DNA of 64,000 nt, from the NCBI RefSeq assembly GCF_964026435.1, contig NZ_OZ032147.1:62001-126000 (forward strand). Direction: 5' to 3'. The notes beneath the pieces were generated by a model that was not told the DNA's origin, made no database searches, and saw nothing but the letters and a program-made list of their open reading frames with translations. Source of the stretch: Rickettsia endosymbiont of Gonocerus acuteangulatus. Lineage in GTDB: Bacteria; Pseudomonadota; Alphaproteobacteria; Rickettsiales; Rickettsiaceae. Position 1 is the first letter of the stretch, and each line of letters begins with the position of its first letter. Shown here piece after piece: positions 27,559 through 51,867 of this stretch. Position numbers and translations under genes: made by a program.

Positions 27559-27571
27559 ATATATAGTGATT

Positions 27572-27717
27572 TTATCTTTCTAAATCTTCTTTAGATAATT
27601 CTGTAATTTTTATAACAGCATCTAATGGTATGCCTTCTTTTAGCATTTTTTTAGCCATAATAGCTTTTGCTTCTTCTCTTGCTTCTTCCTTTCCTTGTTG
27701 CATCCAATGGTGAGCTA
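27572..27717 (-). pseudogene. Rpn-type nuclease/transposase, C-terminal fragment truncated by IS630
   Basis: The last ~48 residues (HHWMQQGKEEAREEAKAIMA, then KKMLKEGIPLDAVIKITELS and KEDLER) match the charged coiled tail and small terminal helix pair of Rpn family recombination-promoting nucleases. The upstream part is missing because an IS630 end starts at 27,718. A different Rpn N-terminal piece is found at 48,948. Confidence 0.65.
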
Positions 27718-28404
27718 TATAGCATAAGTCATTAAGGTACTGACAGAGCGAGAGTATCATGTTATAGTAAGCAAATATTAACAAGCATGTAAAGAGATAT
27801 GGCACGAGCATATGCAATAGAACTAAGACTAAGAGTTATAAAAGCTGTAGAAGCAGGGATACGAATAAGTAAGGTAAGTAAATTATTTAATGTAAGTCGT
27901 GATACTATATATAAATGGAAAAAATTAAAAGATAAGCAAGGTACTTTAGAAGCAGCAACTGGTTATCAGAAAGGACATAGTCATAAGATAAAAGATTCAG
28001 AATCTTTTAAAGAATTTTTTAAAGCTAATATGATAAAACATCAAAGGAGTTAGCAAAGCAATGGGGTAATATTGCATCTGTAACTATTTGAAGACAAATC
28101 AGAAAACTTGGCTATAGCTATAAAAAAACTCATTTTCATCTGAAAAGAGATATTAAATTAAGAAATGAATTTATAGCAAAGATACAAACCATCACAAAAG
28201 ACAAATTAGTATATTTTGATGAATCTAGAATAGAGGATAATGCTTGCAAAGAGTATGGATGGAGCATTATAGGACAAAGGTGTTATGGAGAAAAGGTGTA
28301 TCAACATAAATTTAGAATAAGTATGATAGCTGGTCTTTGTAATGGTAATCTTATTGCTCCTGTAATATTTGAAGGTAATTGTAATACAGAGGTCTTTAAA
28401 ACTT
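27718..28404 (+). mobile_element. IS630-family copy A, 3' part lost to an IS4-like element
   Basis: The left end TATAGCATAAGTCATTAAGG matches the other two IS630 copies (33,970 and 49,619). The element is cut at 28,404, where an IS4-like copy starts after ACTT. The transposase gene (27,799 onward, plus strand) encodes MARAYAIELRLRVIKAVEAG and the HTH, but a lost A after codon 76 frameshifts it. A TTG-AAG context also introduces a TGA within the second frame. It is inactive. Confidence 0.85.
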
Positions 28405-29467
28405 CAAAACTTACGCTATGTTTGGTTCTAAATATCGTAAAGATGGAGAACGCAGCTGTTGTTGCATATAGTCATCTAAAAGCCCTAACTTTATTTGGTA
28501 AACCGTTTTACCGATTGTATTTGCAGTCCTTTTGAGAAATGCCCAAACTAAAAATGCCCAACTAATATGATTACGTTGAATACGCTGTTTCCTGCATTGA
28601 CAACGTTCTATCCCAGTAAGTTGCTTAATTTCTCTGTGCATGCTCTCAATTACCCATCGAAAGCCACACTCATCTTGTGCAGCTTTAGAAGATTTGTGAG
28701 TTTTGTTATTGGTAACAACATACTCAACTCTGTTGGTAGAAACAGTAAATTTAAACAAATTAACATGCTTATTTTTAGCAAAGCCTTTTATATGAATCTC
28801 TACTCCATGCCTGATCTCTTCATCTGAAAATGTCAACTCTTTTACAGCTTTATAAGGTTTAGAATCGTGTGTTTTACTAACGTTTCTATTGGCTTTAATA
28901 GGGGCATAATAATATTTCCCCAGAGAGTCAACATGTTGCATAATTTTGTGTGTAGAATACCATGTGTCAAAAAAAGTACTGTTTGAAAAGGAATCCTTGC
29001 TATAAACAGCATTATTTAACATGTTTAATAGGTGTTCTAGTTTTGTTGCTCCATCATGATCAGGTGCAAAAATTCGATAATCTATTACCCAAAACTTATT
29101 AATATCAGGGTTATAATATACCAGACTCACTACTCCTATACCTTTAGTAACTCTACCTGTAGCTCCACTGTACTGCGATCTTGCAATTTCTATTTGCTTC
29201 GTATTCCTTTTATTTAAAACCGTATCATCAAATATTGTATATCCATTAGATGAAAAAATAACATCATTCTTGATGTGTTCCCATAACAAAACTACATTTC
29301 TTTGCATGTTCAGCGTAGTAGGTTAAACTATAATTCTTTTGGCTAACTATTAAAAATTGACAATAATCTGTCCTATTAATTGGTATTGCTTGCAACTTTA
29401 TCCTCTTTGACATGTTTAATTATTTTTACAATAATTTATCACTTTTTTACTCATAGCGTAAGTTTTG
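28405..29467 (-). mobile_element. IS4-like element copy 1, decayed
   Basis: Ends are CAAAACTTACGCTATG (28,405) and its inverted copy (to 29,467). The transposase lies on the minus strand from 29,413 to 28,411. Compared with the intact 349-codon copy at 30,819 it has lost about 47 bp net near codon 45 and has a local frame disturbance around the second catalytic Asp (KDSFSNSTFFDTWYS). Left flank is IS630 sequence ending ACTT; right flank is an IS21 end (TCAG), so the flanks do not match. Confidence 0.85.
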
Positions 29468-29550
29468 TCAGATAATTTTTTTATGATACTGTATCAATTT
29501 TCAGCCGTTGCATATTAAAAATCTGTATCATTTTTCGACCGCTGTTGACA
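29468..29550. mobile_element. Solo terminal fragment of the IS21-family element
   Basis: Eighty-three bases, TCAGATAATTTTTTTATG to CGACCGCTGTTGACA, are the reverse complement of the left end of the intact IS21 copy at 36,412. They lie between the IS4-like copy 1 and a 5'-truncated plasmid gene. This is the scar of a mostly deleted IS21. Confidence 0.8.
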
Positions 29551-29551
29551 A

Positions 29552-29974
29552 AATGAGAGACAAATAGCAACTTTAAGTGTGCAATTAGAAGCAGTATATG
29601 GCATTAATGGGTATTATGTGCAGGAAGTAGGAGAAGAAATGCTACCACAAAAAACAAAAACATTTGATATTGATCCTAATGGCAAATCTATTGGAGACCT
29701 AGGATCAACTAGGGAATCAGAAGCAAAAGCAGAAGAGACAGCATGGCATCAAATTAGAAAAGGTGTGAGGGAGGAGCTGGGTGATCATATTGACCAAGCT
29801 TGGTTTGCAAAAGCAGAAGTTGCCGAGTGTAAGGAAACCAAAACCTTGACATTAACAATGCCAACAAGATTTATGGCTGATTGGATTAGGAATAACTATT
29901 ATCATGTGATAAGACGAGTGGCTGGTAGTGTTGGGATGAATAGTGTGGAGTATACACTAAATGTTAAAAACTAA
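29552..29974 (+). CDS. Plasmid-type protein with DnaA N-terminal-like domain, 5' truncated
   Basis: The frame is open from the IS21 scar at 29,552; the first usable start is GTG at 29,579 (131 codons). After a linker (TKTFDIDPNGKSIGD) the C-terminal ~90 residues resemble the DnaA N-terminal domain: AWHQIRKGVREELGDHIDQA, WFAKAEVAECKETKTLTL and PTRFMADWIRNNYYHVI. Proteins with this domain at the C-terminus are encoded on rickettsial plasmids and are thought to act in replication. The upstream part, probably coiled coil (QIATLSVQLEAVYG), has been removed. The last seven codons fall in the left copy of the inverted duplication shared with the region before parA. Confidence 0.7.
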   Translation, partial: NERQIATLSVQLEAVYGINGYYVQEVGEEMLPQKTKTFDIDPNGKSIGDLGSTRESEAKAEETAWHQIRKGVREELGDHIDQAWFAKAEVAECKETKTLTLTMPTRFMADWIRNNYYHVIRRVAGSVGMNSVEYTLNVKN

Positions 29975-30339
29975 TTTTGCTATATCAAAATATAACACGT
30001 TAATAATAATTATACTGCATAAAAAATAATTATTCAATCATATATATTAATTCATAAAATCATCATTCATTTTTCATAAAAAATAATTATTACCTCATAA
30101 GTATGAATTATTCTTGACTTAAGTTTTAAGCTTATATAATTATTAGTTATATGAGATGTAGTAATAGAGAACAAAGAAGGAGATTATTACAGAAAAGAAA
30201 AAACCGATAGATGCTCATCCTAGCCAAAGTTTGAGCATATACCGGTCAATGAAACAACCCATAAATCAATATGAGGTCATATATGAATATATCACACTAT
30301 CCTTGTGATGGCAATAATGGTAGAGTATTAGCTGATCAT
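29956..30339 (+). repeat. Left copy of a ~380-bp inverted duplication (autotransporter 5' region)
   Basis: This segment is nearly identical to the reverse complement of 43,004-43,380. It starts inside the last codons of the DnaA-domain gene and ends at codon 19 of an autotransporter 5' fragment. It carries the AT-rich block with two copies of CATAAAAAATAATTATT. Small indels, such as the TATTAGTTA stretch near 30,145, distinguish the copies. Confidence 0.9.
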
Positions 30340-30354
30340 TTGTGTGATTTATAG
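30283..30354 (+). pseudogene. Autotransporter 5' fragment (23 codons)
   Basis: MNISHYPCDGNNGRVLADH is identical to the start of the large autotransporter at 43,060. The frame then runs into foreign sequence and stops after LCDL. The foreign part (30,340-30,374) is the inverted start of the small gene at 31,971. It is a recombination relic that fixes the ATG used by the full-length gene. Confidence 0.85.
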
Positions 30355-30411
30355 ACATAGTTATAATAAGGATGTAAGCTCAAATGTAATTTAGTTATAA
30401 AAAATACCAAA

Positions 30412-30764
30412 ATGGACTCTAAGATTAAAATATGTTTGAGTTGGGTTAAATTATATTAAGAGTCAGGTAATGCAGGGAAAGTGTGTAGTTATTATGGTAT
30501 TTCAAGATTCACCTTACGTAAATGGTATAAACGTTATGAGTTATTGGGTATTGAGGAGCTGCATTCTTTAAGCAGGAAACCGCATACATTTCCTTTTCAG
30601 AAATTAAATGATATATCAGAGCAACAAATACTAGTGTTACGACAAGAGAGGAAATTAGGAGCAAGACGTATTCAGAATGAACTAAAACGTTTACATAACA
30701 TTTCGTTTTCTACGGCTACTATACATAAAGTCCTGCAGAAACATAATCTTGGTAAGATAAACTT
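30412..30764 (+). pseudogene. Transposase N-terminal HTH remnant (IS481/IS3-like)
   Basis: The frame from ATG 30,412 has an in-frame TAA at codon 16 and then continues CSYYGISRFTLRKWYKRYEL, RKPHTFPFQKLND, RRIQNELKRLHNISFSTATI and HKVLQKHNLGKI. That is the double-HTH N-terminal region of integrase-core transposases that read LGARRIQNEL before the DDE domain. An IS4-like element at 30,765 removes the rest. Confidence 0.65.
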
Positions 30765-31874
30765 CAAAACTTACGCTATGAGTAAAAAAGTGATAAATTA
30801 TTGTAAAAATAATTAAACATGTCAAAGAGGATAAAGTTGCAAGCAATACCAATTAATAGGACAGATTATTGTCAATTTTTAATAGTTAGCCAAAAGAATT
30901 ATAGTTTAACCTACTACGCTGAACATGCAAAGAAATGTAGTCATGATGTTATTAATAGATTTTTAAGGAATGAAAAATATACACCTTCTTTGTTATGGGA
31001 ACACATCAAGAATGATGTTATTTTTTCATCTAATGGATATACAATATTTGATGATACGGTTTTAAATAAAAGGAATACGAAGCAAATAGAAATTGCAAGA
31101 TCGCAGTACAGTGGAGCTACAGGTAGAGTTACTAAAGGTATAGGAGTAGTGAGTCTGGTATATTATAACCCTGATATTAATAAGTTTTGGGTAATAGATT
31201 ATCGAATTTTTGCACCTGATCATGATGGAGCAACAAAACTAGAACACCTATTAAACATGTTAAATAATGCTGTTTATAGCAAGAAGATTCCTTTTCAAAC
31301 AGTACTTTTTGACACATGGTATTCTACACACAAAATTATGCAACATGTTGACTCTCTGGGGAAATATTATTATGCCCCTATTAAAGCCAATAGAAACGTT
31401 AGTAAAACACACGATTCTAAACCTTATAAAGCTGTAAAAGAGTTGACATTTTCAGATGAAGAGATCAGGCATGGAGTAGAGATTCATATAAAAGGCTTTG
31501 CTAAAAATAAGCATGTTAATTTGTTTAAATTTACTGTTTCTACCAACAGAGTTGAGTATGTTGTTACCAATAACAAAACTCACAAATCTTCTAAAGCTGC
31601 ACAAGATGAGTGTGGCTTTCGATGGGTAATTGAGAGCATGCACAGAGAAATTAAGCAACTTACTGGGATAGAACGTTGTCAATGCAGGAAACAGCGTATT
31701 CAACGTAATCATATTAGTTGGGCATTTTTAGTTTGGGCATTTCTCAAAAGGACTGCAAATACAATCGGTAAAACGGTTTACCAAATAAAGTTAGGGCTTT
31801 TAGATGACTATATGCAACAACAGCTGCGTTCTCCATCTTTACGATATTTAGAACCAAACATAGCGTAAGTTTTG
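30765..31874 (+). mobile_element. IS4-like element copy 2, intact, 1110 bp, 4-bp target duplication
   Basis: Terminal inverted repeats are CAAAACTTACGCTATG and CATAGCGTAAGTTTTG. The flanking ACTT is present on both sides (30,761-30,764 and 31,875-31,878), a clean 4-bp duplication. One transposase gene fills the element. The ISfinder family cannot be fixed by eye: the protein is a DDE enzyme of the IS4 superfamily, but a 4-bp duplication is more like IS701. Confidence 0.88.
30819..31868 (+). CDS. DDE transposase of the IS4-like element, intact
   Basis: The 349-residue transposase has catalytic acidic residues probably in IFDDTVLNK (about residue 76), TVLFDTWYST (about 165) and WVIESMHREIKQL (about 267). 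A basic region CQCRKQRIQRNHISWAFLVW follows the Glu, as in IS4-superfamily enzymes. The start ATG lies 54 bp inside the left end and the stop overlaps the right inverted repeat. Two further copies occur: one decayed (28,411) and one nearly identical (56,043). Confidence 0.88.
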   Translation: MSKRIKLQAIPINRTDYCQFLIVSQKNYSLTYYAEHAKKCSHDVINRFLRNEKYTPSLLWEHIKNDVIFSSNGYTIFDDTVLNKRNTKQIEIARSQYSGATGRVTKGIGVVSLVYYNPDINKFWVIDYRIFAPDHDGATKLEHLLNMLNNAVYSKKIPFQTVLFDTWYSTHKIMQHVDSLGKYYYAPIKANRNVSKTHDSKPYKAVKELTFSDEEIRHGVEIHIKGFAKNKHVNLFKFTVSTNRVEYVVTNNKTHKSSKAAQDECGFRWVIESMHREIKQLTGIERCQCRKQRIQRNHISWAFLVWAFLKRTANTIGKTVYQIKLGLLDDYMQQQLRSPSLRYLEPNIA

Positions 31875-31970
31875 ACTTAATAATAAAGAACTAAGAAACA
31901 TTATTAAGCTTAAAAAGGAATCATCTATGATTAATTAGTCACGAATTAAACAGACATCCTTATTGTAACT

Positions 31971-32186
31971 ATGTCTATAAATCTCACAGATCATTTTCCA
32001 AATTTACACAAAGCTTTAGCTAGTGCTGCTTCTAGGAACGCTAGCAACGCTTGTGCATTGCCACAAAAACCTCATTCACAAAAAAGTACAAAATCCAAAG
32101 CTGAATCTAAAGCTGCAAGATTAGCTAATATATCGCATGACCATAATAACCAATCCTTATCAGAATCAGGACCAGTGTTAAGGTAG
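31971..32186 (+). CDS. Small plasmid-type hypothetical protein (71 aa)
   Basis: Starts MSINLTDHFPNLHKALASAA and continues as a low-complexity Ala/Ser/Lys-rich segment (SQKSTKSKAESKAARLANIS). There is no membrane segment and no known domain. A 35-bp piece of its start region is found inverted at 30,340-30,374 fused to the autotransporter fragment, which shows that the start region existed before the rearrangement. It could be the head of a longer protein that has been lost. Confidence 0.4.
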   Translation: MSINLTDHFPNLHKALASAASRNASNACALPQKPHSQKSTKSKAESKAARLANISHDHNNQSLSESGPVLR

Positions 32187-32205
32187 CTGTGATGAGCCGC
32201 CACAT

Positions 32206-32757
32206 TTAAACAGGGAATTCTTTTATCTTTTTTTCATACTCTGGTTGGCAGTCTACGAGTGATAATTTTGAATATATTTCAAGCGATTGACGACTCTCAT
32301 GCCCTGAATAAGGTTGAATCAATGCATCATCTACACCTTTTTTCTTCATCCATGTAAAAAGAATAATGTCGTAATTTATGTGGTGATATTGAGTTCTCAA
32401 TACCTGCTTCTTTTGTATAGTTCATTAATATTTTTCTAATACTTCGATCAGAATAAGGTTTCTTCCAACTAGATTCAAATAGGTAAATTGTCTTATTTTT
32501 CTTCACATTTTCTATGTGTACAGCCAATACTTCTGTAAATGCATTAGGAAACGGAACTATTCTACCTTTATTACCCTTTCCTTGGTTAATTCTAATTTGA
32601 CAACTATCTAAATCTATATCTGATATTTTTATTTTTACCAATTCCGATACTCGTACCCCAGTATAAAGTAACGTCTTAATAATTACTACATGCTTCATAT
32701 TTCTTGATTTCCAAACAGCCTTATAATACTTACCAATCTCTTCTTCTGGTTGGCACA
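32206..32757 (-). pseudogene. Tyrosine recombinase (XerC/D-like integrase), 5' truncated and frameshifted
   Basis: Two frames make the catalytic domain. The upstream one holds TLLYTGVRVSELVKIKISDI (first Arg), KGNKGRIVPFP and SPHKLRHY (His-x-x-Arg). After a one-frame shift near 32,370 the other holds [20 protein letters not shown] with GH and the Tyr nucleophile (IYSKL). The N-terminal arm is missing because an IS5 element borders it at 32,758. Such recombinases resolve or integrate plasmids and conjugative elements. The stop is at 32,206. It is inactive as it stands. Confidence 0.8.
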
Positions 32758-33887
32758 GGCTTTGTTCGGAAGGGTATCTGTTGGTCTTTTTTAGACGTAA
32801 TTATCCTATTTTGACTGTGACACATTTACCGAATGAATTCCATAAATTTATAATATTGGTAATAACAATTGCTTCACGTTTTTGTGATGATATTTTTTTA
32901 GTTAATAGAGATGAACCAATACATCTCTTAATTCTTGAAATTTGAGCTTCAATTCGTGCCCTAATTCCATAACAGTATTTTTTATAAAATGCATAAATGT
33001 TACTTTCTTACTAATATAACTTACAACCTTATCATGCCATATGGTGTTATCTTGACCATATATCTTAGCATTACGTGGGGGAGGCATTACTGGCGTAATA
33101 CCGCAATTACTTAATTTCTCAACTCCTTCAATACTATAGTAAGCACCATCAGCAATTACTCTATCTACCGATATATTCTCTGGTATTAAGGACTCTAGCA
33201 TCTCTATATCAGCAGTATAGCAATCAGTAATCTCAACATCATGAATATTCATTGCAGGATCTATAGAAATATGCATTTTCTGCCATGGCTTATTCTTACA
33301 GACTTTATTGTATTTTGTTTCATACCAGTTACTAGCTGTATTAAATCTAAGACCTGTGCTATCTAGTATCAGAGATATAGCTTCGCCATTCTTGATACGC
33401 ACAGCAAGTTTATTGCAAAACTGTTTGACCTCTAATGGTATCTGTGAAAATAAATCACATAGATGACCAAAACTTGGTACTGGAATCTCAAGACCCTTGC
33501 CCCGCCATAGATCCTCAAAGTAACCTGTTATTTGACGCTGCCCGAAATCAAATAAACGATATAATGTATAAATTAGTTGTATATATGGTACTTGGTATGT
33601 CGTTGTCCTCCCAGATTCTCCCTCTACGTAAGGTTGTGTATTAATGAACAAAGACTCTAAATCACCTTCAGGGAAATACAGGCTGACCATCCCTCTTTTT
33701 CTTAAACTATCGTTATATTGTGACCAATTGGTTATTTTATATCTCGGCTTATCTATTTTTCTTGGCAAACCTGTTTTTGTTCTTTCTTTGTATGGCATTT
33801 TTAATTTATAACTTATCTATTCCAGAATATTATATGGTATTCTCTACATACTACCCTTCCTTTTTTATTACCCTTCCGAACAAAGCC
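32758..33887 (-). mobile_element. IS5-family element with frameshifted transposase
   Basis: Ends GGCTTTGTTCGGAAGGGTA (32,758) and its inverted partner (to 33,887) bound about 1130 bp. The transposase reads on the minus strand from 33,798 (MPYKERTKTGLPRKIDKPRY, LILDSTGLRF, DRVIADGAYYS). It shifts frame near 33,000, after WHDKVVSYISKK. The restored frame reads YKKYCYGIRARIEAQISRIK and ends at 32,801. No convincing target duplication is visible. Confidence 0.82.
32801..33798 (-). pseudogene. IS5-family transposase, one frameshift
   Basis: DDE transposase with D in LILDSTG, D in VIADGAYYS and, after the frame change, the basic RARIEAQISRIKR segment carrying the catalytic Glu (Y-x2-R-x3-E: YGIRARIE). 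The shift near 33,000 replaces this Glu-bearing end with FMHFIKNTVMELGHELK in the open frame, so the enzyme from this copy should be dead. Confidence 0.8.
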
Positions 33888-33967
33888 ACTACTAACCTCG
33901 TATCTATAACTTTATAGACCAGTCTATAACCCACCGTGCGAAGTTTAATTTTATAACAATTCGGCAT
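33888..33967 (-). pseudogene. RelE-family toxin fragment
   Basis: About 26 codons, PNCYKIKLRTVGYRLVYKVI then DTRLVV, match the core strands of RelE/StbE toxins (CYKIKLRxxGYRLVYxVxD). An IS630 end cuts the N-terminal side at about 33,970 and an IS5 end cuts the C-terminal side at 33,887. No RelB antitoxin is visible next to it. Confidence 0.65.
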
Positions 33968-33969
33968 AG

Positions 33970-34933
33970 TATAGCATAAGTCATTAAGGTACTGACAGAG
34001 CGAGAGTATCATGTTATAGTAAGCAAATATTAACAAGCATGTAAAGAGATATGGCACGAGCATATGCAATAGAACTAAGACTAAGAGTTATAAAAGCTGT
34101 AGAAGCAGGGATACGAATAAGTAAGGTAAGTAAATTATTTAATGTAAGTCGTGATACTATATATAAATGGAAAAAATTAAAAGATAAGCAAGGTACTTTA
34201 GAAGCAGCAACTGGTTATCAGAAAGGACATAGTCATAAGATAAAAGATTCAGAATCTTTTAAAGAATTTTTTAAAGCTAATATGAATAAAACATCAAAGG
34301 AGTTAGCAAAGCAATGGGGTAATATTGCATCTGTAACTATTTTAAGACAAATCAGAAAACTTGGCTATAGCTATAAAAAAACTCATTTTCATCCGAAAAG
34401 AGATATTAAATTAAGAAATGAATTTATAGCAAAGATACAAACCATCACAAAAGACAAATTAGTATATCTTGATGAATCTGGAATAGAGGATAATGCTTGC
34501 AAAGAGTATGGATGGAGCATTATAGGACAAAGGTGTTATGGAGAAAAGGTGTATCAACATAAATTTAGAATAAGTATGATAGCTGGTCTTTGTAATGGTA
34601 ATCTTATTGCTCCTGTAATATTTGAAGGTAATTGTAATACAGAGGTCTTTAAAACTTATATTAGGGATGTATTAATTACAGAATTACAACCTGGGCAAAC
34701 CGTTATTATGGATAACATTAATTTTCATAAAAATTCTAAAGTTAAAGAGTTAATTGAATCCATTGGTTGTACCATATTGTATTTATCAACTTACTCTCCT
34801 GATTTAAATCCTATAGAGCATTACTGGTTTAAGATAAAAAATGAAATTAGGAAAGTTGTAGGAGATTTTGAAACATTTTATGATGCTGTTTTTAATACTA
34901 TTAAATTGTCAGTATCTTAATGATTTATGCTAT
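33970..34933 (+). mobile_element. IS630-family copy B, intact
   Basis: The left end TATAGCATAAGTCATTAAGG and the right end, TTAATGATTTATGCTATA, are inverted repeats of about 27 bp with a few mismatches. TA at both borders fits the TA target of IS630. Left flank is a RelE fragment and right flank a TraC fragment. Confidence 0.88.
34051..34920 (+). CDS. IS630-family transposase, intact
   Basis: The 289-residue transposase has an N-terminal HTH (RISKVSKLFNVSRDTIYKWK), a winged second HTH (LRQIRKLGYSYKKTHFHPKR) and a DDE domain. The acidic residues lie in LVYLDESGIED, TVIMDNINFHK and SPDLNPIEHYWFKIKNEI, giving the D-D-E of the IS630/mariner group. This is the only undamaged copy of three in the window and could drive movement of the others in trans. 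Confidence 0.9.
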   Translation: MARAYAIELRLRVIKAVEAGIRISKVSKLFNVSRDTIYKWKKLKDKQGTLEAATGYQKGHSHKIKDSESFKEFFKANMNKTSKELAKQWGNIASVTILRQIRKLGYSYKKTHFHPKRDIKLRNEFIAKIQTITKDKLVYLDESGIEDNACKEYGWSIIGQRCYGEKVYQHKFRISMIAGLCNGNLIAPVIFEGNCNTEVFKTYIRDVLITELQPGQTVIMDNINFHKNSKVKELIESIGCTILYLSTYSPDLNPIEHYWFKIKNEIRKVVGDFETFYDAVFNTIKLSVS

Positions 34934-35381
34934 ATGTACAATCATAATTTGCACTATTACAGCTAATAACTCAGGTACGCTTCTTAAGTGGTCAGTTTCA
35001 ATAACTACGATATCTTTCTTCAGTGATAAGCCAGCTTTGCCGCTAAAGAAACTTCCATATTGACCATCTCTTGTAAATGGAAATAACATATTGCCAAGCT
35101 CTTTTGCGTACTCCTCGTCTCTGTTGCTTAGCCACTGTGTGCTATATCAGTGATTTCTGCTTTTGAGCTTTTTTTTGCCATACCTCAATTACAGCTCGCT
35201 GTAGCATTGGTTGCTGCAAATCATTAGTACCAGATTTTGGAGCTGCCATAGTCCCAACTATTGACGGGAAACTCGCTAAAAAATCTGCTCTTGCCTCCTT
35301 GTAATCGTAATTGCGGTAATTGCTCATACCTGCAATCTCTAACCATGCTATATCTCTTGCTTCTCTTACTAATCTGTACAT
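34934..35381 (-). pseudogene. traC: F-type conjugation ATPase TraC, internal fragment with frameshifts
   Basis: Reading from 35,381 gives ARADFLASFPSIVGTMAAPK, DLQQPMLQRAVIEVWQKKAQ. Then, after a lost A near 35,155 and a 2-bp insertion near 35,120, it gives WLSNRDEEYAKELGNMLFPF, GQYGSFFSGKAGLSLKKDIV and LRSVPELLAVIVQIMIVH. This is the C-terminal half of TraC (VirB4 relative of F-type systems), as found in Rickettsiales conjugative elements. IS630 copy B cuts the far end. The gene is non-functional but proves past presence of a tra cluster. Confidence 0.75.
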
Positions 35382-35405
35382 ATATTCCTCTTGAATTTTT
35401 ATTTA

Positions 35406-36497: not shown

Positions 36498-38323
<1,826 letters not shown>

Positions 38324-43380: not shown

Positions 43381-43391
43381 AAAAAATTTTT

Positions 43392-44027: not shown

Positions 44028-44029
44028 TT

Positions 44030-44278: not shown

Positions 44279-44280
44279 TT

Positions 44281-44783
44281 ATGGAACATGATGTATATAA
44301 CAGCTCTGCAGTTAATAAGTTGCTCGGAATATTTTAGATTTAGGTGTACGCGACATTGCATTATTATTACATGTTAGTAAAACTACAATTAGCAAAGTAG
44401 AACTCAACAAAACTCGTGATTTTTTACTAAAACATAATGCTGCACTTGTTCATTTTTTCTCTTGTAATAATATCTATTTTCCTAATCCATTTAGTATTCA
44501 ATACAAACCACAAAATATAATTAATATAAACACAGAGAGTACACTAACTAGATTCCAGTTAAAAGGTGCAAGATGCATTCTCAATATTAGTCAATCCGAT
44601 CTTGCTAAAGTACTAAATATAAATAGATCAGTAATAATTGAGGCTGAAAAGTACCAAAATGAGCAACGCTTAACACTTTTTGGCAAACAGAAAGAACTCG
44701 AGATTATACAATTTTTTAATGACAATAATATTGTACTATATGATCATTTGTCCTTGTTTTTTAGAAAAAGAGTAGACAAATGA
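44281..44783 (+). pseudogene. Plasmid HTH protein with one frameshift
   Basis: ATG at 44,281, 3 bp after the partner gene, encodes MEHDVYNSSAVNKLLGIF and a stop. A shift near 44,325 (NKLLG to NILDLG) continues as VRDIALLLHVSKTTISKVEL, an HTH. It then runs through FQLKGARCILNISQSDLAKV, a second HTH, to the stop at 44,783 (FFRKRVDK). Two HTH units suggest a transcription or copy-number regulator of the par/rep region. It may be inactive or the shift may be a sequencing error. Confidence 0.55.
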
Positions 44784-44837
44784 TTTTTGTTGTGATAGGC
44801 TCTACTTCGTGAGCTTATTTTGCAGAACAAACAAAGG

Positions 44838-44906
44838 GTTAAGTCCTAGAATTAAAATACCCCAAGACTTAACAACTTATAAAAGCTTTCGCAGGGCTTT
44901 ATAAGT
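44838..44906 (+). promoter_or_regulatory. Tandem hairpins before the leader/rep genes
   Basis: GTTAAGTC (44,838-44,845) pairs with GACTTAAC (44,866-44,873). Next to it ACTTATAAAAGC (44,875) pairs with GCTTTATAAGT (to 44,906), followed by a T-rich tract (ATTTTTTTATAAAA). They could be a terminator of the par operon, an attenuator, or the target of an antisense RNA controlling rep. The 191 bp from 44,784 to 44,974 hold nothing else recognisable. Confidence 0.5.
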
Positions 44907-44974
44907 TTATTAGTATATTTTTTTATAAAAAAGTCAAGGATTTCAGGTACTTAGCTCCATAAAAGGAGCATAAA

Positions 44975-45112
44975 ATGCAATTATTTTATCCACTTGGATT
45001 ACCAAGTTATAATATTGGTATACATGGGTTCCATGATACCACTAAGAATCAATCACAATCATACATCCCAATAACTGGATATGTCTTATTCTCATATATT
45101 ATCATGCTCTAG
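44975..45112 (+). CDS. 45-codon leader ORF overlapping the candidate rep gene
   Basis: ATG at 44,975 follows AAAAGGAGCATAAA, the best ribosome-binding site in the par/rep region. The peptide MQLFYPLGLPSYNIGIHGFH...LFSYIIML has no known match and ends at 45,112, 32 bases inside the next gene in another frame. The next gene's own start has a poor ribosome site. The arrangement is what translational coupling of a replication gene to a leader peptide looks like; expression is unproven. Confidence 0.45.
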   Translation: MQLFYPLGLPSYNIGIHGFHDTTKNQSQSYIPITGYVLFSYIIML

Positions 45113-46364
45113 GTTATCTACTCTTGAGAAGATGTATTATATCTTAGCTGATTCTCTTATCTGTATTAACTCTTCTAAAGGACGTAATAGATCTGTATCT
45201 CTTTCCGCTAAAAGCTGGGCAGAGCGACTTGCTTGTTCTAAATTTGAAGTATTTATATTGCAGAAATCCCTAGAGGATAAGGGATATTTCATTATCTACA
45301 AAGAGAAAAATGACAAAGGACAAAATAATCGTAATACTATTACTGCTACTATTCCTAATGATGTTTTTAATGATCTTAAATATGAACCTGATAGATTCAA
45401 TTTAAGGTGTGATGATAATATAGAGACTAAAGGTACTGATCATTCTCAGTCAGATAATATTGATTCTATAGATAAAACATTTATACCTACCTTAGAAGGT
45501 AAGAGACAACATCTTGCAAAAACTAAGATGTTTATTAGAGTACCTTATCAGTTCTTAAAAGAATTAAATTCTAATTGTAACATTTCTGCAACAGCTAAGA
45601 TTGTGTTATTATATTTTTTTACGAAGATTTATAAATCTTCTGTTAGTAAATATGATCATGGCTGTTCTGGTAGTAGATACGATTATGACAACGCTGTTGA
45701 TTATTTAACACAAAATTCAAATTCTATTGTAATTTCTTATCAAGAATTACAACAAGAACTTAAATTACATAGGAATAGTCTTACTAAGGCATTAAAGACT
45801 CTAGAAGCAGCTAATCTTATCAATAGAGATCAGATAGTTATAAAAAGTGATGATTATTATAACAGCAGAGCTGATAAATCATTATGGAGAATATCACTGC
45901 TTAATGTTCCCTTCATAACTAATCCTAATGATCAGCATGTACAAGAAGGGCAGGAAGAATGCACTGATCTAAAAGCTGCAGTAATTAGCGATCACACTAA
46001 GGTGGAATATAACAATAATCAAGCCTTGTGGAATTCCTTTGCAGAAAAGAGATGCACTAAATATGACCCTCCTTGCACTGATTCTGGTCAATTATATAAT
46101 AAAGACTTTATATTAAATTTAGTCTTTAATGATATTGCGTCTTTGATAAATTATATAGAATATAATGCTGACACTATGATAAAGGAGTCTGCACCATTTT
46201 TAGCTCAAATTGGCAGCAGAGCAAAAACCGAATTAAAAGAAATATGGGAAGAGAAAGTAAAAAGTAATCCTACCAATATTGTAGAATATAAATTTTCACA
46301 AATAGAAAATAATTTATCTGAATTTAATCTCTTTTGGGTATATTCCCCGCCGCTTGCGGCGTAA
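45081..46364 (+). CDS. Candidate plasmid replication initiator, winged-helix type, 3' end disrupted by IS200
   Basis: The open frame is 427 codons. The N-terminal part has a helix-turn-helix-like segment (SLSAKSWAERLACSKFEVFI, LQKSLEDKGYFIIYKEKND). A second lies near residues 165-255 (YQFLKELNSNCNISATAKIV, YQELQQELKLHRNSLTKALK, TLEAANLINRDQIV). Two winged-helix domains in tandem are the design of many iteron-plasmid Rep proteins. Position after parA, the small partner and a HTH gene supports that. The last ten codons are IS200 sequence. Skipping the element, the frame resumes at 46,854 as TIIQKMKLGQWASILLSY and stops at 46,940. No catalytic motif is recognised, so replication function is inferred. 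Confidence 0.5.
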   Translation: MSYSHILSCSRLSTLEKMYYILADSLICINSSKGRNRSVSLSAKSWAERLACSKFEVFILQKSLEDKGYFIIYKEKNDKGQNNRNTITATIPNDVFNDLKYEPDRFNLRCDDNIETKGTDHSQSDNIDSIDKTFIPTLEGKRQHLAKTKMFIRVPYQFLKELNSNCNISATAKIVLLYFFTKIYKSSVSKYDHGCSGSRYDYDNAVDYLTQNSNSIVISYQELQQELKLHRNSLTKALKTLEAANLINRDQIVIKSDDYYNSRADKSLWRISLLNVPFITNPNDQHVQEGQEECTDLKAAVISDHTKVEYNNNQALWNSFAEKRCTKYDPPCTDSGQLYNKDFILNLVFNDIASLINYIEYNADTMIKESAPFLAQIGSRAKTELKEIWEEKVKSNPTNIVEYKFSQIENNLSEFNLFWVYSPPLAA

Positions 46365-46853
46365 TATGGCGGAATGAGCAAATATATACATAAAAGTCAT
46401 AATGTTATGGTACTGCTGTATCACATGGTATTTCCAGCAAAATATCGCCGAGCAGTGTTTGACGTATCAGTTGATCAAGTATTACGAGAAATATGTTTAG
46501 AGATAGAAAAGAGATATCAAATAAAATTTTTAGAAATAGGGGTTGATGAAGATCATGTCCATTTTTTGGTACAATCTGTACCAACCTATAGCGTAACAAA
46601 AATAGTAACAACAATTAAAAGTGTTACAGCTCGTCAAATATTTAGACAGTGTCCACAGGTAAAGAAACAATTATGGGGTGGAGAATTTTGGACTGATGGA
46701 TATTTTACGAGTACGGTAGGTAAGCATGGAAATGAGAATATGATAGGAAAATACGTAAAAAACCAAGGCAAGGAATATCAGAAACTGCATGAGGATCATC
46801 AGCTAGCTTTCTTCTAAAATACCCCGCTGCTTGCGGCGGGGATTACTTTTATT
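46326..46853 (+). mobile_element. IS200-type element copy 1
   Basis: About 528 bp from AATCTCTTTTGGGTATA to GGGGATTACTTTTATT. The left end folds at CCGCCGCTTGCGGCG and the right at CCCCGCTGCTTGCGGCGGGG, the imperfect palindromes that single-strand Y1 transposases recognise. There is no target duplication. It lies in the 3' end of the candidate rep gene. Confidence 0.9.
46374..46817 (+). CDS. tnpA: IS200-type Y1 transposase TnpA
   Basis: The 147-residue HUH single-strand transposase has the HUH histidines at residues 61 and 63 (DEDHVHFLVQSVP), the catalytic Tyr127 and the helix partner Gln131 in IGKYVKNQGKE. It cuts and rejoins single-stranded DNA at the end hairpins. There is no tnpB companion, so it is an IS200 rather than IS605 layout. 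It differs from copy 4 (58,560) at very few residues. Confidence 0.92.
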   Translation: MSKYIHKSHNVMVLLYHMVFPAKYRRAVFDVSVDQVLREICLEIEKRYQIKFLEIGVDEDHVHFLVQSVPTYSVTKIVTTIKSVTARQIFRQCPQVKKQLWGGEFWTDGYFTSTVGKHGNENMIGKYVKNQGKEYQKLHEDHQLAFF

Positions 46854-47057
46854 ACTATAATTCAAAAAATGAAGCTAGGGCAATGGGCTAGTATTCTATT
46901 ATCTTATATTTCAATTAATCCTTGGTCTTTATATTTTTAAAAGCTTTCTTGGTCAGGTGAACAAAGAGGAATTAATCATTTTTGTAATAAGGAATATTAT
47001 AAAAAAGAATGTGAGAAAAAAAATATTCCTTGTGAAGAACAAGATTTAAATCATTTT

Positions 47058-47546
47058 ATGTTATTGCTATTATATAAAATGTGTAAGCTTAATGATAAAA
47101 ATATCCGTACTTTAAAAAAGGAAATTAATGATAAGAGAGAGAAACATGGAAGTATGGAAATAGTCATAGATGAACTGGTTGAATCTCAATCGCCTTATGA
47201 AAAAAATATTCGTAATTTTGCAAAAAAGAATAAAGATATAATTGAACTAGCAAGAACTGAGGCTCCTCAATTATTTGTTACAGAGCATAATATTGATTTA
47301 TGTATTAAAGATGAAGAGCGTAGAAAGGATGCAAAAGAAATATTAAAATTAAAATCTTCAGAACAGTTTGTTGAAAATTGCTTAAAAAGAGTATGCCCTA
47401 AGTTAGATGAGTATAGAAAGGCTCAAGCTGAAAAAGCTAAACTTAATATAAAATATGAACCAATAGGTATTGATTTGATGACTTTTGAGATACTTAAGCA
47501 TACTGATGAGCATAATGATGTCTTATTAGGTGCTGCAAAAGGATGA
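47058..47546 (+). CDS. Hypothetical protein paired with DUF2748 gene, probably 5' truncated
   Basis: 162 codons from the first ATG, but the frame is open back to 46,941 (KLSWSGEQRGINHFCNKEYY, KECEKKNIPCEEQDLNHF). No ribosome site precedes 47,058, so the real gene was probably longer. The protein is soluble and charged (Lys/Glu 30%), mostly helical, with coiled-coil-like stretches (NDKNIRTLKKEINDKREKHG). It ends 4 bp inside the next gene (ATGA overlap), hence the two are co-translated and may interact. No family is recognised. Confidence 0.55.
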   Translation: MLLLLYKMCKLNDKNIRTLKKEINDKREKHGSMEIVIDELVESQSPYEKNIRNFAKKNKDIIELARTEAPQLFVTEHNIDLCIKDEERRKDAKEILKLKSSEQFVENCLKRVCPKLDEYRKAQAEKAKLNIKYEPIGIDLMTFEILKHTDEHNDVLLGAAKG

Positions 47547-48865
47547 GTACTATATACCATATTCTTGATCATGTTCCTGCTATTTATAAAGAGGATATAG
47601 AAATAGAGTATGAGAACTTAGCAATGCAGATAATTAAGTCGGGAAAGCTAAGAATAGATACCGATGATTGTTGCAATTTTGCAAGATTTAGTGACCCTGC
47701 TTTTAATATTAGTATGATGGTTAGCAAAGAAGAGCTAACAGAACCACATTTAATCCCTGAAACTACAAAACTTTTCCAAAATCTATATAGAAATTCTGCT
47801 ACCGATCAAAAAATAAAATCTGTCTTTGATAATCTAAAAAAACAAATCCATAAACTACAGCCAGTCAAAAAAGAAGTAATGGAAATGTTAGCCCGTATTT
47901 TTGTACAATCTACTCACCCGATCGTCATAAAATGGCTACTTCTTGATAAAACAGAGATATTTATAACCTACTCCCATAATATCGGCGATATGATGGATAT
48001 GGTTAACTGGCAGAAAGTAGGCGGTAATAGTGGAATGCAAAGCACTAATGGCAAAGATGTAGCTATTTTTGTTTCATGCGGCGGTAATCCTTTCGCCGAA
48101 AATAGTAAGGATCACCCTATGTATGGTGGTGGTTTTGCTGCTGTTGCAAGACTTCAGATTATAGCAGCTCAAGAACTTGGGCATTTTGCTGATATAAAAA
48201 GGGACAATAAAGGCAGGCAAATCACCCGCCATTCAGCTAATTTTTCTGGCACTAAAGCAACAGATAAAGCACGTATTGCTCGTAAAAAAGATATAGAACA
48301 TTGCCGTAATTTACTGCATAAATTGCTTAAAGCAGGAATGAAAAAGCAGCTAGATTATGAGACAAAGCTTAAATTTTATCATGCTAATAAAGTAAGAGGT
48401 TTAAAAATTCTAGCAATAAATTTCATGATTTTTATATATAAATTTAAGCTTTTAAGATATAGCAATAAACATGGTTTAGTTTTTGTCAGGAAATTTAAAT
48501 CAGATAAATATATGGCATTAATGATTGATGCTATGTTTAAAGATATGCAAGCTAATTTATCACCATCAGCTGATGTATATAAAAATAAAAATCCTGAAAT
48601 TGAAGAGGCAGTAGCCTGCATTGAAGCACTAGCACGAGTACCTCAGCAGGCAATAAAGTGGGGGTATCTCACAACAAAGGAAACTATGCATGAGCTTTAT
48701 AAAATATATTATAATGAAGTTATCCCGTCATTAATCACTAGCTATGATGCAGTAACAGGTGAAAACTATAAACGTAGTTTGAAAAAAGCTAAAATTAGCT
48801 TATTAGCTAAAATAAATATTTTTAACAAGAAAAAATTAGTACTAAAACCAGTCAGAGAATTATAA
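47543..48865 (+). CDS. DUF2748-like rickettsial protein of unknown function
   Basis: The 440-residue soluble protein has one possible membrane-associated segment (LKILAINFMIFIYKFKLLRY, about residues 287-306). A conserved-looking core has IFVSCGGNPFAENSKDHPMY, GGGFAAVARLQIIAAQELGH and FADIKRDNKGRQITRHSANF. The AQELGHFAD segment resembles the zinc site of metallopeptidases (xExxH) without the first His; further His/Asp residues lie nearby. I recognise it as the Rickettsiales-specific DUF2748 type; activity is unknown. Its start overlaps the upstream gene by 4 bp. It precedes an Rpn gene broken by IS630. Confidence 0.6.
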   Translation: MSTIYHILDHVPAIYKEDIEIEYENLAMQIIKSGKLRIDTDDCCNFARFSDPAFNISMMVSKEELTEPHLIPETTKLFQNLYRNSATDQKIKSVFDNLKKQIHKLQPVKKEVMEMLARIFVQSTHPIVIKWLLLDKTEIFITYSHNIGDMMDMVNWQKVGGNSGMQSTNGKDVAIFVSCGGNPFAENSKDHPMYGGGFAAVARLQIIAAQELGHFADIKRDNKGRQITRHSANFSGTKATDKARIARKKDIEHCRNLLHKLLKAGMKKQLDYETKLKFYHANKVRGLKILAINFMIFIYKFKLLRYSNKHGLVFVRKFKSDKYMALMIDAMFKDMQANLSPSADVYKNKNPEIEEAVACIEALARVPQQAIKWGYLTTKETMHELYKIYYNEVIPSLITSYDAVTGENYKRSLKKAKISLLAKINIFNKKKLVLKPVREL

Positions 48866-48947
48866 TTTGTTGTAATAAAAAATTTAATCTTTAATTGAAA
48901 TAATTGTAATAATGGTATATTTATAGTGCAACATATCATTATTACTT

Positions 48948-49618
48948 ATGTCCCAGAAACCTAAACACGACGAAATTATCCGAAGTGCATTTGAAAATCC
49001 AATAGTTGCCAAAGAATTTTTTCAAATGCCCTTACCTCCCCATATACAAAATTTGATTTCCTTTGAAAAGCTGAAAATGGAAAAAGATAGTTTTGTAGAT
49101 AAAAAACTTAAGAAATCTATAGTAGATATTCTATTTTCTGCTAAGTTTGGAGATAGAAAAGGTTACTTGTTTCTGTTGCTCGAACATCAAAGCACATCTA
49201 AATATAATATGGCTTTGCGGCTATTTAAATATATGTTTAAAATTGCTGAATACCATAAGAAAGCAACAAAAAGTAAAAAGTTCCCTTTCATATATCCTTT
49301 GATATTTTATAACGGAGTGCAAAAATATAATGCTCCACGAAATCTATGGGAATTATTTGAAAACAGTGAATTAGTAAAAGCTACATGGACTAATGACTAT
49401 CAATTAATTAATGTACATGATATTCCTGATATAGAACTAAAAAAACAAGCTTGGTCAGGAATTTTACAGTTTTTCATGAAGCATATTCATGAACGTGATT
49501 TATTAAAAAGGTGGGAAGAAGTAGCTGATCTTTTACCTAAATTCGCTAAAATAGATATTGGTGTTGATTATATAGAACTAATTTTATGCTACACTTTGAC
49601 CAAGATTAAGCAAGATGA
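48948..49618 (+). pseudogene. Rpn-family recombination-promoting nuclease, N-terminal part cut by IS630
   Basis: About 223 codons remain. The opening KHDEIIRSAFENPIVAKEFF, then DILFSAKFGDRKGYLFLLLE and HQSTSKYNMALRLFKYM form the PD-(D/E)XK nuclease core with the D and E-x-Q motif (LLEHQS). PLIFYNGVQKYNAPRNLWEL is the conserved Rpn YNG block. An IS630 end at 49,619 stops the frame after KQDD; the C-terminal ~80 residues of the family are absent. Rpn proteins are transposase-like nucleases that stimulate RecA-independent recombination. Confidence 0.8.
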
Positions 49619-50582
49619 TATAGCATAAATCATTAAGATACTGACAATTTAATAGTATTAAAAACAGCATCATAAAATGTTTCAAAATCTCCTACAACTT
49701 TCCTAATTTCATTTTTTATCTTAAACCAGTAATGCTCTATAGGATTTAAATCAGGAGAGTAAGTTGGTAAATACAATATGGTACAACCAACGGATTCAAT
49801 GAACTCTTTAACTTTAGAATTTTTATGAAAATTAATGTTATCCATAATAACGGTTTGCCCAGGTTGTAATTCTGTAATTAATACATCCCTAATATAAGTT
49901 TTAAAGACCTCTGTATTACAATTACCTTCAAATACAGGAGCAATAAGATTACCATTACAAAGACCAGCTATCATACTTATTCTAAATTTATGTTGATACA
50001 CCTTTTCTCCATAACACCTTTGTCCTATAATGCTCCATCCATACTCTTTGCAAGCATTATCCTCTATTCCAGATTCATCAAGATATACTAATTTGTCTTT
50101 TGTGATGGTTTGTATCTTTGCTATAAATTCATTTCTTAATTTAATATCTCTTTTCGGATGAAAATGAGTTTTGTTTATAGCTATAGCCAAGTTTTCTGAT
50201 TTGTCTTAAAATAGTTACAGATGCAATATTACCCCATTGCTTTGCTAACTCCTTTGATGTTTTATTCATATTAGCTTTAAAAAATTCTTTAAAAGATTCT
50301 GAATCTTTTATCTTATGACTATGTCCTTTCTGATAACCAGTTGCTGCTTCTAAAGTACCTTGCTTATCTTTTAATTTTTTCCATTTATATATAGTATCAC
50401 GACTTACATTAAATAATTTACTTACCTTACTTATTCGTATCCCTGCTTCTACAGCTTTTATAACTCTTAGTCTTAGTTCTATTGCATATGCTCGTGCCAT
50501 ATCTCTTTACATGCTTGTTAATATTTGCTTACTATAACATGATACTCTCGCTCTGTCAGTACCTTAATGACTTATGCTATAT
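49619..50582 (-). mobile_element. IS630-family copy C, decayed transposase
   Basis: Ends ATAGCATAAATCATTAAGAT (left) and the inverted CATAAGTCATTAAGG end (right, to 50,582) match copy B in reverse. The transposase (50,500 to 49,633) is split by a base change in the AAAAAAA run (SYKQNSFSS against SYKKTHFHP) and lacks one Ile codon (LIAPVFEG). Inserted in an Rpn gene. Confidence 0.88.
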
Positions 50583-50602
50583 AAAAATGTCAAATAAATT
50601 TA

Positions 50603-51131
50603 AATCTCTTTTGGGTATATTCCCCGCCGCTTGCGGCGTAATATGGCGGAATGAGCAAATATATACATAAAAGTCATAATGTTACGGTACTGCTGTATCA
50701 CATGGTATTTCCAGCAAAATATCGCCGAGCAGTGTTTGACGTATCAGTTGATCAAGTATTACGAGAAATATGTTTAGAGATAGAAAAGAGATATCAAATA
50801 AAATTTTTTAGAAATAGGGGTTGATGAAGATCATGTCCATTTTTTGGTACAATCTGTACCAACCTATAGCGTAACAAAAATAGTAACAACAATTAAAAGT
50901 GTTACAGCTCGTCAAATATTTAGACAGTGTCCACAGGTAAAGAAACAATTATGGGGTGGAGAATTTTGGACTGATGGATATTTTACGAGTACGGTAGGTA
51001 AGCATGGAAATGAGAATATGATAGGAAAATACGTAAAAAACCAAGGCAAGGAATATCAGAAACTGCATGAGGATCATCAGCTAGCTTTCTTCTAAAATAC
51101 CCCGCTGCTTGCGGCGGGGATTACTTTTATT
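50603..51131 (+). mobile_element. IS200-type element copy 2, transposase frameshifted
   Basis: Same ends as copy 1. The transposase starts at 50,651 but has an extra T in the run before codon 53 (AAATTTTTTTAG instead of AAATTTTTAG). This separates the N-terminal part from the HUH-containing part (50,844-51,095). It lies 20 bp past IS630 copy C. Confidence 0.88.
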
Positions 51132-51500
51132 TGAGGGTTGACTAATTAATAATTTTATCTATAGTTTACTTATCTAATAGTATTTGAACTCTACTATTAA
51201 TATAAACTAACTCCAAGTATACGCTTTATGCTGGGAATCTGCTATTATAATTATTTTTAAAATAAGAAGTATAGCGGAAGTCGTTATATTAATGGCTGAG
51301 CTTAATTCCCAGCACCTTATTCCTATTGTTTATTCAATTACATTTTGCTTGAATTTTTAAGTAAAGCCTACAAAGATATTAGTGTTAAGTTCAATTTATT
51401 AGAAGTATAGTGACCCTAAGTGGTAAATTAATATAGTGTCCTTATGAAGATTTTAAGGTTTTTAGTTTTTCTAAAAGATAGCACACATTTGGAAAGATTG

Positions 51501-51674
51501 TTATTCCAATAATTTTAATTCTTTAGCTTTAATAATAGAGCTATTATTTTTTCGAGCATTTGCTTTTATCTTTTTTATTTTCTTTTCCCAATTAATATAA
51601 TAATAAGTTTTAAAACAATAAGCAGAAAATTCTAAGAATCTGTTTTCATCTTTTGTTAATTCAATTAATTTTAT
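51501..51674 (-). pseudogene. C-terminal gene fragment bordering the MITE
   Basis: Read from the MITE edge at 51,674 the minus strand encodes about 57 codons: IKLIELTKDENRFLEFSAYC, FKTYYYINWEKKIKKIKANA, RKNNSSIIKAKELKLLE, then stop at 51,501. It has no start and the head was removed at the MITE. No family is recognised. From 51,132 to 51,500 I see only AT-rich sequence with an imperfect repeat (TGCTGGGAATC / ATTCCCAGCACC), no gene. Confidence 0.35.
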
Positions 51675-51799
51675 CAAAACTTACGCTATGTTTGATATAA
51701 TGCCCATGAATTAAGGGATATTATGAAGTGCTTCACTATAAAACATTGCTGTGTAATAAGAGTTTTTAGCATATTTGCTATAACATAGCGTAAGTTTTG
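51675..51799. repeat. MITE with IS4-like termini, complete (125 bp)
   Basis: Starts CAAAACTTACGCTATGTTTG and ends CATAGCGTAAGTTTTG, the exact termini of the 1110-bp IS4-like element, with no gene between. TTTAT flanks both sides. It is almost identical to the copy at 55,730-55,853 and closely similar to the split copy at 35,406. Confidence 0.88.
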
Positions 51800-51867
51800 T
51801 TTATATAAGCCAAGTTGGCAATTATGCAATAATTGGCAACTTGAGTTAGCGTAGGTCATTTTTTTTA

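Follow-up and report, generated by a model that had tools for sequence, protein, structure and literature searches.

A plasmid relic opened within its replication gene in the chromosome of a bellii-group Rickettsia endosymbiont

A plasmid relic between dnaE and ccmC

We investigated a stretch of 64,000 nucleotides (hereafter the window; positions 62001-126000 of NZ_OZ032147.1) from the Rickettsia endosymbiont of Gonocerus acuteangulatus, a bellii-group Rickettsia with a 1.98 Mb chromosome assembled as a single contig of 1,983,518 bp (genome 99.99% complete). Between dnaE and ccmC we identified a plasmid-derived stretch (29552-46117) that carries a replication gene (rep) in two pieces, parA with its partner and a Sca12-type autotransporter, and that is fused at its right end to an old chromosomal gene. 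A circular plasmid was probably captured into the chromosome by recombination inside rep and this target gene, and then broken up by insertion sequences (IS). The initial annotation, made from the letters of the window, had likewise proposed a captured plasmid in decay, and the gene order, the DNA identity to plasmids and the rep::chromosome fusion bear this out. It had, however, extended the island of plasmid and conjugative DNA, about 24 kb long, to 51.8 kb, and suggested a check for plasmid matches over 29.5-46.9 kb; the plasmid-derived sequence occupies 29552-46117, and 46.1-49.6 kb is old chromosome.

The genomes of relatives are denoted here by G and a number. The window dnaE is 98% identical to those of G003, G014 and G020 over the first 824-825 residues and 97% to that of G019, and fourfold-site divergence from G014 is 0.12-0.13 in two backbone genes. 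G014 (1,522,076 bp) is a genome that we take to be R. bellii RML369-C. Plasmid DNA for comparison came from small contigs of the relatives' genomes, nine of which were aligned at rep; no Rickettsia plasmid was present among the records listed from a named plasmid collection. Two contigs of the R. felis genome G002, C2 (62,829 bp) and C3 (39,263 bp), correspond to pRF and pRF-delta in the part of the source available to us (PMC1800911). The plasmid-derived features, the joint and its target are as follows, with strand in brackets.

29552-29974 (+): plasmid Rep C-terminal part (DnaA_N domain), about residues 610-763 of 774; tblastn 51%, 2e-38; PF11638 7.3e-15
29956-30339 (+): sca12-parA intergenic region with the start of sca12, second copy; inverted repeats I8, I10 with 43004-43380; pRF 17188-16865
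31991-32186 (+): second sca12 start, continued (plasmid relic); tblastn 74.5% to pRF 16862-16710
32206-32757 (-): tyrosine recombinase relic of plasmid type, in two frames; Phage_integrase 1.1e-24; 69% DNA identity to G008:C2 7891-7341, the nearest relative in the plasmid DNA compared
35142-35381 (-): possible TraC (F-type) fragment; weak match to TIGR02746, E 1.7e-4 over 40 residues
39938-43072 (-): Sca12-type autotransporter, open, 1044 aa; Autotransporter beta-domain 7.4e-14
43073-43391 (no strand): sca12-parA intergenic region, candidate operator or centromere; two 35-nt direct repeats 57 bp apart, the same repeats in pRF and G009
43392-44027 (+): parA, open, 211 aa; 95.4% DNA identity to pRF
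44030-44278 (+): ribbon-helix-helix (RHH) partner of parA, open, 82 aa; RHH_1 4.3e-4
44288-44780 (+): plasmid helix-turn-helix (HTH) gene, frame broken near its start; 90% to a 164-aa gene of G009, in two frames
44975-46117 (+): plasmid Rep N-terminal part (winged helix), frame broken at residue 38/39; 92% and 72% to pRF-delta Rep, in two frames
46109-46118 (no strand): plasmid-chromosome junction without IS; 8-9 bp common to rep and target
46118-47546 (+): old chromosomal target gene (707 aa in G014), C-terminal part beginning at residue ~403, interrupted by IS200 at 46329-46847; 81-86% protein, 90-96% DNA

Two ends of one Rep gene

A winged-helix candidate rep and a DnaA-domain plasmid gene had been listed separately in the initial annotation. 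Both are plasmid replication parts, but by comparison with plasmid relatives the two open reading frames (ORFs; 44975-46117 and 29552-29974) are the two ends of one plasmid Rep gene and not two genes. The Rep of pRF-delta (774 aa) holds both domains, MarR-like at residues 254-285 and DnaA_N at 695-754. By tblastn, its residues 1-409 match window 44975-46172, the final residues running into chromosomal sequence. The pieces left in the window correspond to residues 1 to about 394 (44975-46117) and about 610-763 (29555-29941); they lie about 15 kb apart, and about 630 bp of the middle of rep are missing relative to pRF.

Positions 39939-46117 followed by 29555-32142 are collinear with pRF from 23672 down to 16715, except for the gap in rep and the unmatched middle of sca12. 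Thus rep, sca12, parA, the RHH gene and the HTH gene keep their pRF order, but the order is opened inside rep. The start of sca12 is repeated behind rep in pRF as well, indicating that this duplication is an old plasmid structure.

With a frameshift, a cut, a missing middle and a fused end, rep cannot be intact. Since it is broken, and since the sequence is embedded in a contig of 1.98 Mb, we class the element as a plasmid relic and not as a plasmid; it probably has no replication function at present. We additionally noted that the rep::chromosomal fusion ORF (45081-46364) is in frame and open for 427 aa, and a truncated winged-helix protein could be made from it.

The plasmid-chromosome joint

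In eight of the nine plasmid contigs compared, similarity to the window stops at 46117 or 46118; for the ninth, G013:C26, the compared sequence reaches no further than the beginning of rep. On the chromosomal side, G003 and G014, the two bellii-group chromosomes with a close copy of the target, match from 46109 onwards. The sequence common at the joint is TATA(T/G)TAAA, with pRF and G014 agreeing at 9/9 bases, the plasmid side of the window and G014 at 8/9, and the G001 and G005 plasmids at fewer. In 200,000 random pairings of positions, 8/9 matching bases were reached 80 and 70 times with two Reps, figures uncorrected for the choice of offset. We found no IS at the right joint and no repeat of at least 40 bases there. 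Homologous recombination between rep and the target was considered and rejected, since outside the joint the two show no resemblance (best blastp E 0.9). The two genes share only 8-9 bp, and illegitimate (microhomology) integration is therefore the likeliest mechanism.

No Pfam family was found for the target gene, which in G014 forms an open frame of 707 aa with a short-chain dehydrogenase (phaB/fabG-like) gene on one side and DUF2748 on the other. In G014 it is uninterrupted, providing an empty site for the joint, and in G003 it contains no plasmid DNA, but has a frame break of its own. Target residues 1-402 were not found anywhere in the endosymbiont genome. Similarly, no true phaB/fabG was found in this genome, the best match being 44%.

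The left end and plasmid pieces elsewhere in the genome

At about 29552 the plasmid sequence is cut off on its left by an 84-bp terminal piece of an IS21-family element, beyond which come a DDE IS and a partial IS630 copy. The former upstream flank, clpB with its adjoining gene, is found at 302-307 kb of the contig, where it too is interrupted by a copy of the DDE IS bordering the plasmid on the left. The left joint has thus been lost, and this arrangement points to IS recombination as the likely cause.

A search with full-length Rep returned 13 matches in the genome; the N-terminal part at 44975-46117 has one close match. Scattered fragments of rep lie at contig positions 612582-613142, 764135-764469, 817866-818441 and 1670232-1670462. 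We considered the 764-kb fragment as the missing middle of rep, and set it aside because its end clearly differs from the plasmids and from the continuation of this rep. The copy of the left block at 707 kb (DDE IS, IS21 end, rep end and second sca12 start) represents an empty site for the second DDE IS of the window, which is carried by the partial copy at 916 kb.

We additionally identified a second plasmid-type module at contig 1418179-1423830 (L109:10180-15831), encoding a Rep-like protein (244 aa, without a Pfam match), a ParA (213 aa), an HTH protein (157 aa) and an autotransporter (825 aa). It sits between acpS and a fragment of an HD-domain (relA/spoT-like) gene, with gyrB, a murA-like gene and rpoZ nearby. 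Its ParA is nearest, among the compared plasmid DNA, to G021:C2 (42%), suggesting that the module probably derives from another plasmid type.

Capture of a circular plasmid and its alternatives

We propose that a circular rickettsial plasmid with a DnaA-like Rep, ParA and Sca12, of which R. felis pRF is the nearest compared, would have entered the lineage and recombined with the chromosome inside the old gene between the phaB/fabG-like gene and DUF2748. The crossover would have fallen within rep, most likely by illegitimate (microhomology) joining, and the plasmid, made linear by integration, would have ended in part of rep on either side. Insertion sequences would later have separated the left end and the adjoining chromosome, deleted the central part of rep together with the first half of the target, and moved the block, along with DUF2748 and half of rpn, to its present place next to dnaE and ccmC. 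The two pieces of rep, the permuted gene order and the fusion point are observed directly, as is the failure to find the first half of the target; that one single circle was involved, that microhomology joined it and that the IS events followed this order is what we infer.

Several observations weigh against this history. About half of the stretch is IS, which offers many routes to the same end state. Window 28399-31988 recurs nearly identically at L202:7864-10385 (contig 705863-708384) and partly at 914.8-916.8 kb, so that this left block could have come separately by IS; these copies weaken the case for a single circle, and our confidence was therefore held at the level of a probable rather than a firm conclusion. 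The fourfold-site divergence of sca12 from its pRF homologue is 0.36 (73.6% DNA identity over the end part, with the middle unmatched) and exceeds that of parA, indicating that the plasmid is a mosaic. Lastly, in G003 the first frame of the target ends at L039:16216, and the joint maps to about 16212-16221 (region L039:16175-16240); the spot may be prone to decay, or the target gene may be dispensable.

The separate copies of the left block fit a piecemeal history, in which plasmid fragments bounded by IS (on the right, sca12, parA, the RHH and HTH genes and the N-terminal part of rep; on the left, the C-terminal part of rep and the second sca12 start) were copied in at separate times and met by chance. 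The dispersal of other rep fragments at 612, 764, 818, 1418 and 1670 kb is likewise in its favour. However, only one close match to the N-terminal part of rep was seen in the whole genome, the two blocks taken together line up with a single plasmid region from which about 630 bp were lost, and the right junction has no IS; we therefore regard a piecemeal origin as rather unlikely. An error of assembly, with a plasmid contig misjoined to the chromosome, might be suspected in a region that is half repeats. Yet no repeat of at least 40 bases lies at the junction, both junction genes are decayed, and a misjoin should leave the first half of the target elsewhere, whereas it was not found in the rest of a nearly complete, single-contig genome; this speaks against misassembly, which we consider scarcely credible.

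Two further accounts draw on the recombinase relic. The initial annotation had recognised an integrase relic, which our comparison identifies as a tyrosine recombinase with a plasmid relative, and its position within the block would suit site-specific integration by the plasmid's own enzyme. We judge this very unlikely, given that the junction lies inside rep and far from the recombinase, that the window contains no tRNA gene, and that inspection by eye, with no program search made, revealed no attachment-like repeat at the junction. The same relic, with one weak TraC fragment, could be taken for the remains of a RAGE-type integrative conjugative element rather than a plasmid. The TraC relic reported initially does match TIGR02746, but weakly and over 40 residues, and the fragment has neither a Pfam match nor a match in the compared plasmid DNA. 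The scanned ORFs of the island yielded no further recognisable tra gene and no tra cluster; the core consists of rep, parA, the RHH gene and sca12 in plasmid order. RAGE elements insert at tRNA genes, whereas none is available in the window as an insertion site, and a decayed RAGE is highly improbable. Capture of a circular plasmid through rep thus remains our preferred account.

The fourfold-site divergence of three backbone genes from R. felis is 0.42-0.46, against 0.15-0.25 for parA, the RHH gene and rep from pRF. The plasmid genes are therefore closer to pRF than the backbone is to R. felis, indicating that the plasmid moved between lineages. As G003 and G014 hold the target without the plasmid, the capture probably took place after this lineage had diverged from theirs. 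DUF2748 was not found in G019, an 88% complete draft.

Partition genes and autotransporter

The initial identification of parA with a partner is supported. The best NCBIfam match of ParA is the ParA partition model (4.6e-35, 121 bits, below the cut-off of 180); the protein is 98% identical to that of pRF (G002:C2) and 97% to that of G009:C111, and full-length matches at this level occur in only two of the 22 other genomes (G002 and G009). Compared with pRF, parA shows 25 synonymous and 4 nonsynonymous codon differences. On the lineage of the window, polarised with pRF and G009, we counted 6 synonymous and 2 nonsynonymous changes, with 7 further codons undecided; these are too few to tell selection from drift. 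The partner is an RHH protein (RHH_1 at 20.6 bits, cut-off 20.5), 88% identical to pRF over 69 residues and 91% to G009.

The autotransporter had been called plasmid-type, and this is confirmed by its beta-domain and by the match of both its ends to the pRF homologue (residues 1-94 at 65%, residues 640-1044 at 55%, the middle unmatched). In the NCBIfam library it matched only Sca2 and rOmpA, both under cut-off, and we name it Sca12 because of the match to the pRF gene and the usage in the available part of PMC4750851.

Of the par/rep core that the initial annotation thought might be expressed, parA and the RHH gene are open, while rep is broken. The genes of a partition system are represented by an open ATPase gene, an open gene for a DNA-binding partner and an upstream site that retains its two 35-nt repeats (43227-43318). 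The upstream region occurs at four chromosomal places (about 92.0-92.3, 105.0-105.4, 707.5-707.9 and 916.3-916.6 kb of the contig), and its 24-bp core has four genome matches (three exact, one with a mismatch), against none for a reversed control. The copy at 707 kb is L202:9468-9851; the copy at 916 kb (L110:8316-8642) and the second copy in pRF both lack one 57-bp unit. A promoter scan yielded 13 candidates where 13.2 were expected, no better than chance.

Judging from the open frames, the parA and RHH pair might still be expressed, and a second active partition system on the chromosome is possible. A bolder proposal would be that the pair is still made and binds its repeat-bearing upstream region at all four places and, with the module at 1.418-1.424 Mb, would give the chromosome two additional partition systems of plasmid type, one of them with dispersed sites, alongside its own ParA family proteins; we hold this to be distinctly improbable.

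Relation to known plasmids and integrations

The relic shares with pRF and pRF-delta a Rep with a DnaA_N end, a ParA at 98% identity, an RHH partner, an autotransporter divergent from parA and, behind rep, a second sca12 start; the order of these features is identical. It differs in lying in a chromosome and in being opened within rep; rep and the HTH gene are both broken, and no tra cluster was recognised.

Plasmid gene clusters have also been reported from the chromosomes of R. prowazekii and R. raoultii, by authors whom we take to be El Karkouri and colleagues. Those clusters resemble the present case in being plasmid genes within a chromosome, and in the available parts of the reports they are read as disrupted, integrated plasmids (PMC4750851, PMC8907221). 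The same parts describe no joint, whereas here, in the bellii group, both the joint and the disrupted target are visible. Gillespie and colleagues suggested, in the part available to us, that R. bellii had taken plasmids into its chromosome (PMC1800911). The group and the idea are the same, but theirs was a hypothesis from gene content, while here a joint is present in a relative of R. bellii. RAGE elements, for which the literature matches included PMC10732058 and PMC6300072, are mobile DNA of Rickettsiales genomes that carries tra genes; the relic differs in having no tra cluster recognised and no tRNA.

We found no account of this genome or of this joint among the literature matches listed, nor any description of the genome in the available parts of PMC13375240 (on a 3.25 Mb bellii-group Rickettsia), PMC11288687 and PMC9098888. 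The kind of event is thus already known, though seldom this legible; its anatomy here is new. Earlier integrations, as far as the available parts of their reports go, were inferred from gene content, and a surviving joint in rep, fused to a known chromosomal gene and with an empty site in a relative, opens the mode of capture to testing. Pieces of several plasmid types, scattered among many IS, additionally bear on the growth of insect Rickettsia genomes, and the open parA pair offers a concrete test of whether a captured partition system stays active.

Mobile elements and chromosomal borders

The 24.2 kb between dnaE and ccmC comprise about 32% plasmid-derived sequence, 50% IS and 13% backbone, shares that rest on borders set by hand. 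Base composition did not separate plasmid from backbone parts within the window. We counted 12 IS copies or remnants, in agreement with the nine or more noted initially, and two elements resembling miniature inverted-repeat transposable elements (MITEs). The remaining features are as follows.

24118-27558 (+): dnaE, backbone, left chromosomal flank; matches in 36/38 genomes, 97-98% in nearest relatives
27575-27719 (-): rpn C-terminal piece (Transposase_31 family nuclease), backbone; tblastn to G003 rpn residues 243-310; collinear with dnaE in G003 and G020
27716-28403 (+): IS630-family copy, 5' part only; repeats D1, I3; HTH_Tnp_IS630 1e-10
28404-29467 (-): DDE IS, high copy in the genome; repeats I1, I5, I9
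29468-29551 (no strand): IS21-family element end, 84 bp, abutting rep; 100% reverse complement of 36411-36494; plasmid matches begin at 29551-29555
30338-31990 (+): mobile-element copy with 41-bp inverted ends (I14), broken by the DDE IS at 30765-31875; HTH_32 in the ORF at 30481; the 707-kb copy lacks the DDE IS
32758-33891 (-): DDE transposase IS, also on pRF and G005 plasmid DNA; PF01609 2.3e-13; 87-92% DNA to plasmids
33970-34935 (+): IS630-family copy; repeats D1, D3, I2; DDE_3 4.2e-40, HTH_Tnp_IS630 9.4e-14
35517-39866 (+): IS21-family element with a second one inside (36411 to ~38409); IstB and rve domains; terminal repeats I13, I15
47543-48865 (+): DUF2748 gene, ancient backbone; PF10871 1.2e-228; present in 21/23 genomes of the genus
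48948-49628 (+): rpn N-terminal piece; 87% to G003 rpn residues 1-232; PF04754 1.5e-51
49618-50583 (-): IS630-family copy, frame broken, two ORFs; repeats I2, I4, I6
50600-51131 (+): IS200-family copy, frame broken; repeats D2, D4; ORF 50844-51095
51868-55305 (no single strand): ccmC (-) and polA (+), backbone genes of the right flank; likewise neighbours in G003, G019 and G020, not in G014

The window region 27500-29500 has 105 matches in the genome, many of them to the DDE IS of 28404-29467, and the DDE IS copy at 30819-31868 matches DDE_Tnp_1 (8.1e-12). To the right of the joint, 46118-49622 (the rest of the target, DUF2748 and the N-terminal piece of rpn) is backbone except for the IS200 copy, with 92.6-92.8% DNA identity over 2.6-2.8 kb to G003 and G014. 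The initial annotation named ancient chromosomal loci among the island genes as grounds for abandoning plasmid capture; DUF2748, the gene preceding it and rpn are such loci, but rep, parA and sca12 are not. Similarly, Rpn had been counted as an island relic, whereas rpn is a backbone gene split between 27575-27719 and 48948-49628. Its C-terminal piece adjoins dnaE, as in G003, and the two pieces fall 65 bp short of meeting, ending at two different TA sites. In G014 there are two copies of rpn, one with DUF2748 and one with dnaE. A simple IS630 inversion that split one rpn is possible, as are two separate insertions. In G003, DUF2748, rpn and dnaE stand together (L039:17049-19386), and rpn may have been a recombination point.

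The initial annotation also took dnaE and ccmC-polA for old neighbours. We rejected dnaE-ccmC as an old neighbourhood: where the chromosome is one contig (15 genomes, treated as circular), 41.6-283 kb separate the two genes in every case, and in none do they lie within 40 kb. In the seven other genomes of the genus search, dnaE and ccmC are on different contigs. dnaE and polA are convergent and 0.25-4.5 kb apart in 13 of 20 loci; among these 20, they do not lie within 20 kb in the three bellii-group genomes, and polA of the window runs in the opposite direction. Finally, the dnaE match of the window is unbroken, while in G003, G014, G020 and many other Rickettsia the match is interrupted around residue 824/825 by an insert that keeps the frame, probably a palindromic element.

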